Source: Fimbriimonadaceae bacterium (lineage in GTDB: Bacteria; Armatimonadota; Fimbriimonadia; Fimbriimonadales; Fimbriimonadaceae). From it: a stretch of 64,000 bases of DNA. The stretch covers positions 1 to 64,000 of the forward strand of contig JAMLGR010000001.1 in assembly GCA_023957775.1 (NCBI GenBank), in the 5' to 3' direction. The position numbers were made by a program, and so were the translations under genes. Positions 31,517-58,047 of the stretch are shown here, in pieces (positions within the stretch are counted from its first letter, which is position 1; each line of letters opens with the position of its first letter). The notes under the pieces are model-generated. The model ran no database searches and was not told the DNA's origin. It saw nothing but the letters and a program-made list of their open reading frames with translations.

Positions 31517-32242
31517 GTGCTGTTGCTCCTAACCCTTGCGACCCTGCAGCCGTCCGAAACGGCCGAGGAGATCTTGGCTTCGATGAGCGCGGCCTACCGA
31601 TCCTGCGAAACGTACGCCGACACCGGGGTGGTCTCTTCGGTCTTCGAAGCCGGCGACGAGACGGGCGAACCCTCCGTTCGGACGATCCGCACCCTTTTCG
31701 TGCGGCCGGACCACATCCGTTTCGAATGCCACGAGAAGAATGCCGCGACCAAGGCGGAGGAGTATTTCGTCGTTTGGAGGGGTGCCACGAAGTCTCACAC
31801 GTGGTGGTCGACGATCGCCAACGGCACGCACCACGACACGCCTTTGGAGGCGTTGGGAGAGGCCTCGGCCCTCTCGGGCGGGGCTTCCGACCTGGTGTAC
31901 GCCCTGCTCTCGCCGCCCGTCGATGGGAAAGGCTGGTCGGTCGCCCAGTTGGCGTCCTTGAAGAAGGCGGGCACCGAGCAGGTTACGGGTGCACTGTGCG
32001 ATGTCTTGGTGGGGAAGGGCTTTGAGGACTCGGCCGTCACCGTGTGGATCGACCGGGACTCGCACGCGATCCGGCGGTTTAGGGAAGCGGTCGTCGTGCC
32101 AGGCGGCACCACGGTGGACACCGTCACCCTGGTGCCGGTGTTCGGCGCACCGGTCACCCCGGAGGAGGCCTGGTTCAAACCCCCCATCGTGCGGGATCCG
32201 CCGCCGGTCGGCGGCGATACCGGAGGCGGTGGGGCGCGATGA
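31517..32242 (+). CDS. Exported LolA/DUF2092-like protein
   Basis: Protein of 241 residues, GTG start with GAGG upstream. Short signal peptide (about 1-13, LLLLTLATLQ), then AEEILASMSAAYRSCETYADTG and a run of beta strands (IRTLFVRPDHIRFECHEK...YFVVWRG...) like the lipoprotein-carrier fold of LolA and DUF2092. The C-terminus is Pro/Gly-rich. It could bind lipid or hydrophobic ligands in the periplasm; this is inferred from fold resemblance only. It overlaps the next gene by 4 nt (ATGA), so it acts with a thioredoxin-like protein in one operon. Confidence 0.6.
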   Translation: MLLLLTLATLQPSETAEEILASMSAAYRSCETYADTGVVSSVFEAGDETGEPSVRTIRTLFVRPDHIRFECHEKNAATKAEEYFVVWRGATKSHTWWSTIANGTHHDTPLEALGEASALSGGASDLVYALLSPPVDGKGWSVAQLASLKKAGTEQVTGALCDVLVGKGFEDSAVTVWIDRDSHAIRRFREAVVVPGGTTVDTVTLVPVFGAPVTPEEAWFKPPIVRDPPPVGGDTGGGGAR

Positions 32243-33036
32243 TCCTCTTGGCCGCCCTCGCTTTGGCGGCGCCCCTCCAGTGGGCCGCCGACCTTCCGAC
32301 GGCGCTTCGGACCGCCGGCGGCGGCCGCGTCGTGCTGGCGTTCTTGTGGAAGCAGGATTGCCCGTGGTGCGACAAACTCGAGAAGGAGACCTTTCCCTCC
32401 AAGGAGTTTCAAGACCTCGGCAATTCGCTGGTTCCGGTGAGACTCCAGGGCGACGGATCCGAAGCTGGGGAGTCGGCGAGGCTGGGTGTTCGCGGATTCC
32501 CGACGCTCCTGTTCCTGTCGAGCAAGGGTCGCGTCGTCGGACGCATCCAAGGGTTTGTGTCGGCCGATGCCATCCAGTTCGAGGCCTCGGAGGCCGCAAG
32601 ACGGGCGTGCAACCTCGACGTGGTTCCCCGCTCGCGACAGGCATTTGCCGATCGGGTCGCCATCGCGGCCGCGCAGCGGAACGAGGCGGACGTTGAGACG
32701 TGGCTGGGGCGCCTGGGCGCGGGGAGCGATCCAGAGTCCGCCGCCGCCCACCTCGCTGCGGGGATTTACTTCGAGGAGGAGATGCGGCTCACGGACGCGC
32801 GTTCGCACTTTGAGAAGGCGGTGCTTTCGACGGATGCGCGGGTGCGGGCCCAAGCGCTTTTCGGCCTCGCTCGGACCTACCTTTCGACCGATGGGTTCGC
32901 GGACGCTGCGCGCAACCTGGAGGCGGCCCTGGCGGGAGAGCACCTGTTCCACAGCCAGCGGGAGTTGGCGGCGAACCTCCTGAAGTTTGCTCGTCAGAAG
33001 GGTGGAGGGGCTGAACCCTCGATGGTCCGCCGATGA
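32239..33036 (+). CDS. Exported thioredoxin-like protein with TPR-type C-terminus (CPWC)
   Basis: Protein of 265 residues. A hydrophobic N-terminus is followed by AFLWKQDCPWCDKLEKETF: CPWC at 41-44 is the redox motif, and GVRGFPTLLFLSSKGRVVG holds the cis-Pro. The second half has TPR-like helices (AAAHLAAGIYFEEEMRLTDARSHFEKAV, FGLARTYLSTDGFADAARNLEAAL). It likely reduces or folds exported proteins. It is a paralogue, in layout, of the UGA-containing gene at 56996-57814, and shows that the usual residue at that UGA position is Cys. It is coupled by ATGA to the LolA-like gene. Confidence 0.82.
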   Translation: MILLAALALAAPLQWAADLPTALRTAGGGRVVLAFLWKQDCPWCDKLEKETFPSKEFQDLGNSLVPVRLQGDGSEAGESARLGVRGFPTLLFLSSKGRVVGRIQGFVSADAIQFEASEAARRACNLDVVPRSRQAFADRVAIAAAQRNEADVETWLGRLGAGSDPESAAAHLAAGIYFEEEMRLTDARSHFEKAVLSTDARVRAQALFGLARTYLSTDGFADAARNLEAALAGEHLFHSQRELAANLLKFARQKGGGAEPSMVRR

Positions 33037-56995: not shown

Positions 56996-57814
56996 TTAGC
57001 CGCCCTTGAGGAGGTCCTGGGCCATTTGAACGTACTCCTTCGGCGCGCCTTCGAGGGCGACGAGTCGTTTGGCCACGGCCTTGGCCGAGGCCACGTCCCG
57101 ATTGCCCTGGTGGCACACCATGAGCGAGATGAGCGCGTAAGCGCGGTCGTTCGCGTTCAGCGACGCCGCATCCGCCTTCTTGAAGTAGCCGATGGCCTTG
57201 TCAAGGTCGCCGGACGTTTGGTAGTAGTCGCCGACGGCGTTGTACGCCGGCGCGAGCGCGGGGCCCTTGTAGTGGCCCTTCTCGGCCCGTGCCAGTTGGG
57301 CGAGGGCCTGGTCCGGCTTTTCGCGAGCCGCCGAAATGGCGACCATCTGCGCGTTGGCTTCCGGGTCGTTCGGGTTGGCCTTGAGCTTCGCAAGGACGCT
57401 TGGGAGCGACTTGTGGAGCTTCAGCGCCTTGGCCATCTCCTCTGAGAACCCTTCGGGGGGCATGTAGCCGCCGATCTTTCCGACGAGTTCCCCCTTGGCG
57501 TCGACGAACAGGATCGTGGGATAACCCTGGACGTGATACTGTTTGGCGAGGGCGACGCCCTCTTTTTCTGCGTTGACTTTGAGCGGCACCAACTGGGCCG
57601 CAAGCTTCTGGACTCGAGGATCGGGATAGGTGTCCTTCTCCAGTCGCTTGCACCAGCCTCACCAGTCGGTGTAGAAGTCGAGCATGATCATCTTGCCGGA
57701 CGCAGCCGCGCTCTTCTTCGCCGCATCCCAATCCTTCACCCATCCAATGGGCTGGGCTTGAGACAGGGCGGAGGCGAGAACCACCGTGCCGGCAAGGAGT
57801 AATCGAAGTTTCAT
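56996..57814 (-). CDS. Exported thioredoxin-like protein with in-frame UGA at the redox position (candidate selenoprotein)
   Basis: ATG at 57814 with AGGAGGT upstream. Read through one TGA, the frame is open for 272 residues. A signal peptide (1-20, ASALSQA) leads to DFYTDW, then TGA at codon 52 (57659-57661), then GWCKRLEKDTYPD: the pattern is U-G-W-C where CxxC is expected. The cis-Pro loop is at YHVQGYPTILFVDAKG, and TPR-like helices follow (about 135-260). The paralogue at 32239-33036 has CPWC at the same place. The TGA at this one position is the reason for a selenocysteine proposal; a TGC to TGA mutation or sequencing error is the alternative. No SelB or SelA gene is in the window. Confidence 0.7.
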
Positions 57815-57849: not shown

Positions 57850-58040
57850 GGGACGGGAGTCGGGAGTCGGGAATCGGGAATCGGTGTCGGAGCGATTCCC
57901 GATTCCCGTCTCCCGGTTCCCGATTCCCGGTTCCCGATTCCCGGTTCCCGTCTCCCGTCTCCCGATTCCCGTCTCCCGTCTCCCGGTTCCCGTCTCCCGA
58001 TTCCCGGTTCCCGTCTCCCGGTTCCCGTCTCCCGATTCCC
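57850..58040. repeat. Large heptamer array upstream of secDF
   Basis: Four reverse units (GGGAGTC, GGGAGTC, GGGAATC, GGGAATC), a short break, then 21 uninterrupted plus-strand heptamers (57894-58040) drawn from GATTCCC, GGTTCCC and GTCTCCC. The array ends 8 nt before the secDF -10. It fills most of the 275-nt divergent gap. Confidence 0.92.
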
Positions 58041-58047
58041 GCTCCGG

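Follow-up and report, generated by a model that had tools for sequence, protein, structure and literature searches.

A UGA codon at the catalytic position of a thioredoxin-like gene

The window, a stretch of DNA of 64,000 nucleotides, holds a reverse-strand gene for a putatively exported thioredoxin-like protein whose frame carries UGA where the first cysteine of a CxxC motif would be expected, raising the question of whether this codon is read as selenocysteine (Sec) or terminates translation. As the initial annotation had described, the 272-codon frame of this gene (the UGWC gene hereafter) is open except for a single internal stop, the TGA at codon 52 in the context DFYTDW-U-GWCKRLE, and closes with TAA, while a paralogue in the same window indeed has cysteine at the matching place (Table 1). 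Standard annotation would label such a gene truncated. It is neighboured by a downstream gene for a TetR-family regulator and by a divergent SecDF gene, neither of which points to its function. Between the SecDF gene and the UGWC gene, a tandem array with a 7-bp/21-bp unit (TTCCCGT) occupies positions 57893-58041, likely within the promoter region of the UGWC gene.

Table 1. Coordinates of the UGWC gene, its parts, its candidate SECIS hairpin and its paralogue in the window
Feature	Position	Strand	Remarks
UGWC gene: signal peptide, thioredoxin domain and TPR-like helical C-terminal domain	56996..57814	−	272 aa with U52
Likely signal peptide MKLRLLLAGTVVLASALSQAQ	57752..57814	−	Assigned by eye; N-terminus of the model is low-confidence
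TGA codon 52, putative Sec at the CxxC nucleophile position	57659..57661	−	Among 36 full-length homologues, TGA in 9 and TGC/TGT in 27
TGC codon 55, resolving Cys in UxxC	57650..57652	−	C55 invariant in the alignment
Candidate SECIS hairpin, 10-57 nt after UGA	57602..57649	−	MFE −13.7, z −1.40
SECIS lower stem AAGC/GCTT	57649-57646 with 57605-57602	−	
SECIS middle stem CTGGA/TCCAG	57643-57639 with 57612-57608	−	
SECIS upper pairs AGGA/TCCT	57636-57633 with 57620-57617	−	
Thioredoxin-like Cys paralogue (QDCPWC)	32239..33036	+	

Selenocysteine machinery and further UGA-containing genes

The main gap left by the initial annotation, the lack of Sec machinery in the window, is closed because all four components are encoded elsewhere in the same genome, a draft of 3.5 Mb in 27 contigs with 96.6% completeness. 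A tRNA-Sec was detected with 76.5 bits against a gathering score of 47 and was called SeC(tca) by ARAGORN, and SelB (365 bits), SelA (505 bits) and SelD (350 bits) each scored above their curated cut-offs. Across this genome and its relatives, SelA was present in 28 of 41 genomes, the same 28 in which a tRNA-Sec of at least 66 bits was found.

At least five further candidates accompany the UGWC gene in the source genome: SelD, which itself carries a TGA in the motif VDCAGUATK, and thioredoxin-fold genes with WUTYC, WUPSC, HWUGFC and HWUGPC. The first of these thioredoxin-fold genes (L137:1832-2161; G000 C1:119825-120145) carries TGA in frame at the CxxC position (DFYADWUTYCKKLD) of a domain located at the C-terminus of a longer exported protein, and the second (L138:1745-2140; G000 C23:6750-7136) is a lipoprotein-like thioredoxin gene with FSAEWUPSC, which apparently ends at a further TGA. 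HWUGFC and HWUGPC occur in AhpC-TSA family genes (L186, G000 C5:151693-152079, and L187, G000 C3:244707-245060, respectively). The UGWC gene thus belongs to a group of candidate selenoproteins that have a thioredoxin fold and UxxC.

Exchange of Sec and Cys codons among homologues

Searches of relatives, of 291 genomes of the phylum and of a contig database yielded 36 distinct full-length homologues. Codon 52 was TGA in nine and TGC or TGT in 27 of them, with nothing else observed, and none had another in-frame stop in the aligned frame, so that Cys/Sec exchange occurs exactly at this codon in a family free of other nonsense mutations. The initial annotation had named a genome devoid of selB and selC, or orthologues with Cys only and further nonsense mutations, as refuting its reading; on both counts the outcome was the opposite. 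Because nine of 36 homologues share the TGA and none has a stop elsewhere, its presence at codon 52 is more than chance. The exchange extends to a same-genus pair, with TGA in G048 and TGC in G049. In the best topology of the homologue tree six Sec/Cys changes are required, and three remain necessary when only well-supported branches are counted; support is weak for many inner branches of this tree. In other SelA-positive relatives, TGA likewise occupies this codon in thioredoxin-like genes that are shorter or more distantly related. SelA was present in all nine genomes with the TGA form versus 13 of the 21 searched genomes with the Cys form (p 0.035), an association that is only modest when taken alone.

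The contig-database matches were Cys-only; as the query had Cys at position 52 and could hardly find TGA forms, this result is not evidence against Sec. The plasmid search returned partial homologues only. Two homologues (L149 in G008 C53 and L110 in G013 C8) were each listed with one TGA, yet codon 52 is TGC in both, and the TGA of L149, at aligned position 135, is probably its normal stop.

These counts bear on whether the UGA is decoded as another residue such as tryptophan, through a changed code or leaky read-through. Read-through alone would likewise keep the frame open, but it would leave unexplained that TGA alternates at codon 52 with Cys codons only, and at a catalytic Cys site. Given also the tRNA-Sec with anticodon tca and the location of the remaining TGA sites found in the genome, likewise at UxxC or the SelD motif, we consider this reading scarcely tenable.

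A hairpin downstream of the UGA codon

The initial annotation had placed a CTGGA...TCCAG hairpin downstream of the UGA, and its position was borne out as the middle stem of a longer candidate structure (Table 1). When the 48 nucleotides following UGxxC were compared with synonymous shuffles, the nine Sec genes gave a mean energy of −18.1 and a mean z of −2.45, versus −8.8 and −0.02 for the 27 Cys genes; the difference in folding z has a p of about 1e-5, with related genes treated as independent. The hairpin is therefore a property found at the family level, while the UGWC gene taken alone (z −1.40, p 0.098) is not significant. In the structure shared by Sec genes, nucleotides 14-21 after UGA form a lower stem with nucleotides 49-56, above which come a 5-nt bulge and an upper stem that pairs nucleotides 27-31 with 44-48. 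Pairing of the lower stem was found in 66 of 72 cells in Sec genes, versus 140 of 216 in Cys genes and 10-36 of 72 when the register was slid, and the main stem of the UGWC gene lies 3 nt out of the register shared by the family. When stem arms were exchanged between Sec genes, pairing remained at 83-89%, compared with 92-97% for native arms, indicating that true covariation is weak. The structural case therefore rests on the contrast between Sec and Cys genes and on the synonymous shuffles.

The published bSECIS rule requires G among the first two nucleotides of the loop, and the initial annotation had doubted the hairpin on this ground. The doubt was justified to the extent that no structure of the UGWC gene within 5 kcal of the minimum obeys the rule. 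By contrast, the rule itself fails to separate the two gene classes, being satisfied by four of nine Sec genes (the UGWC gene and four other Sec genes miss it) and nine of 27 Cys genes, whereas hairpin stability does separate them. Since a subset of selenoprotein genes fails the bSECIS model (PMC13188914), the loop rule is not a defining feature. We tentatively suggest, as a possibility that we would not yet favour, that thioredoxin-TPR selenoproteins of Armatimonadota might use a distinct SECIS class matched to the SelB of the phylum. Such a SECIS would have an extended basal stem pairing nucleotides 14-21 with 49-56 after UGA, a bulge of 5 nt on its 5' side and an upper stem whose loop can start with a nucleotide other than G; together with the four other TGA thioredoxin-fold genes of the genome, it would point to an extracytoplasmic redox system that depends on selenium.

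The family data also address a sequencing or assembly error converting TGC into TGA, which a draft genome of 27 contigs and the single base separating the two codons would allow. Because eight other genomes share the same TGA, each in its own assembly, such an error is very unlikely, the more so as TGA genes of the family have the downstream hairpin and Cys genes do not; we give it almost no weight.

Selection downstream of the UGA codon

A further alternative is that the TGA is a nonsense mutation, the gene being a pseudogene or coding for a short peptide that ends at a genuine stop. Past the TGA, the Sec-Sec pair G183/G179 has a dN/dS of 0.083, a value to be read with caution as synonymous sites are near-saturated (dS 1.8), and the UGWC gene and its homologue in G032 have protein identities of 49% upstream and 52% downstream of the TGA. 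Both comparisons argue that the downstream part, as judged from codon and protein alignments, is translated and under purifying selection. Synonymous codon changes in G183/G179 were fewer in the first 20 codons after the TGA (2 of 17) than later (81 of 160; p 0.0017), while the Sec/Cys pair G048/G049 had no dip in synonymous change after the TGA (pS 0.67 versus 0.73).

The standard code reads TGA as a stop, and the initial annotation thought two other genes of the window disrupted; a scan of the window for split frames gave mostly apparent shadow frames, which speak neither for nor against such disruption. Against a nonsense mutation stand the TGA at the same codon in eight other genomes with the frame after it intact, the purifying selection that persists beyond the TGA in G183/G179 and the Sec machinery of the genome, and we regard it as highly improbable.

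A model for Sec incorporation and its implications

Combined, the Sec machinery, codon conservation, Cys/Sec exchange, family RNA structure above synonymous expectation and purifying selection past the TGA support the proposal of the initial annotation that UGA replaces the first Cys of CxxC, and the UGWC gene almost certainly encodes an exported thioredoxin-fold selenoprotein with Sec at UGA 52. For Sec insertion, export, redox direction and partner binding we infer the following scheme. SelA, SelD and tRNA-Sec would make Sec-tRNA, which SelB would deliver to UGA 52, guided by the hairpin in the 48 nt after UGxxC, allowing the ribosome to read through the codon and finish a protein of 272 residues. 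Once exported, this protein would use Sec52 as nucleophile and Cys55 as resolving residue in its U-G-W-C redox centre, while the TPR-like tail probably binds a partner or substrate.

No paper on selenocysteine in Armatimonadota was found in the open-access literature, most subscription papers lying outside the search, and the phylum is not mentioned in two selenoprotein reviews (PMC13188914, PMC9312934). The UGWC gene adds a clear selenoprotein family to this phylum, in which Sec/Cys swaps within one homologous family stand out, as does the off-rule SECIS. The nine Sec and 27 Cys versions, including G048/G049, form a natural set in which to study the advantage of selenium over sulphur and the gain or loss of a SECIS. 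As SECIS finders rely on a model from which the SECIS of this family frequently deviates, they may overlook similar genes.

Comparison with known systems

The UGWC protein matched Thioredoxin_2 (PF13098) with 64.3 bits against a cut-off of 27, as well as Thioredoxin_7 and, weakly, TPR. In its structural model (mean pLDDT 94.3), residue 52 lies just before a helix (53-62) and P99 before a strand (100-104), followed by a C-terminal run of helices; invariant alignment columns include W25, F47, Y48, C52 (Cys or Sec), C55 and P99. The Pfam score, the U/CxxC at the helix start and the conserved proline before the next strand are those of a thioredoxin-fold UxxC protein of PF13098. Foldseek linked the thioredoxin domain to DsbD-gamma and, at a lower level, the two-domain layout to YbbN, and the model is that of a DsbD-gamma-like thioredoxin domain with a TPR-like tail.

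DsbD-gamma (PDB 2fwg, 1uc7) is the best match in both fold and sequence, with 37-38% identity and a TM of 0.74 by target length (2fwg). It has CxxC, however, and the UGWC protein lacks the other DsbD domains and has the added TPR-like tail, its score against full-length DsbD (NCBIfam) being 76.8 bits, below the cut-off of 330. YbbN/CnoX (PDB 3qou) likewise combines a thioredoxin domain with a TPR-like helical domain on its C-terminal side, although global superposition was poor (rmsd 22 over 270 columns). YbbN is cytoplasmic and is not known to have CxxC, unlike the UGWC protein with its likely signal peptide and UxxC. The C-terminal thioredoxin-like part of the selenoprotein TsoB (NF045694) matches the UGWC protein (E 3.4e-18), but at 65 bits against a cut-off of 805, and the rhodanese/DsbD fusion is absent from the latter. 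Finally, a thiol:disulfide interchange selenoprotein with PF13098 and UxxC has already been listed (PMC13188914, PMC9312934). Compared by listed domain and motif alone, it shares with the UGWC protein the same Pfam domain, the same motif and Sec at the nucleophile position, the UGWC protein having one thioredoxin domain and a TPR-like C-terminus. As UxxC selenoproteins of PF13098 are thus known, the UGWC gene adds a further case of this type.
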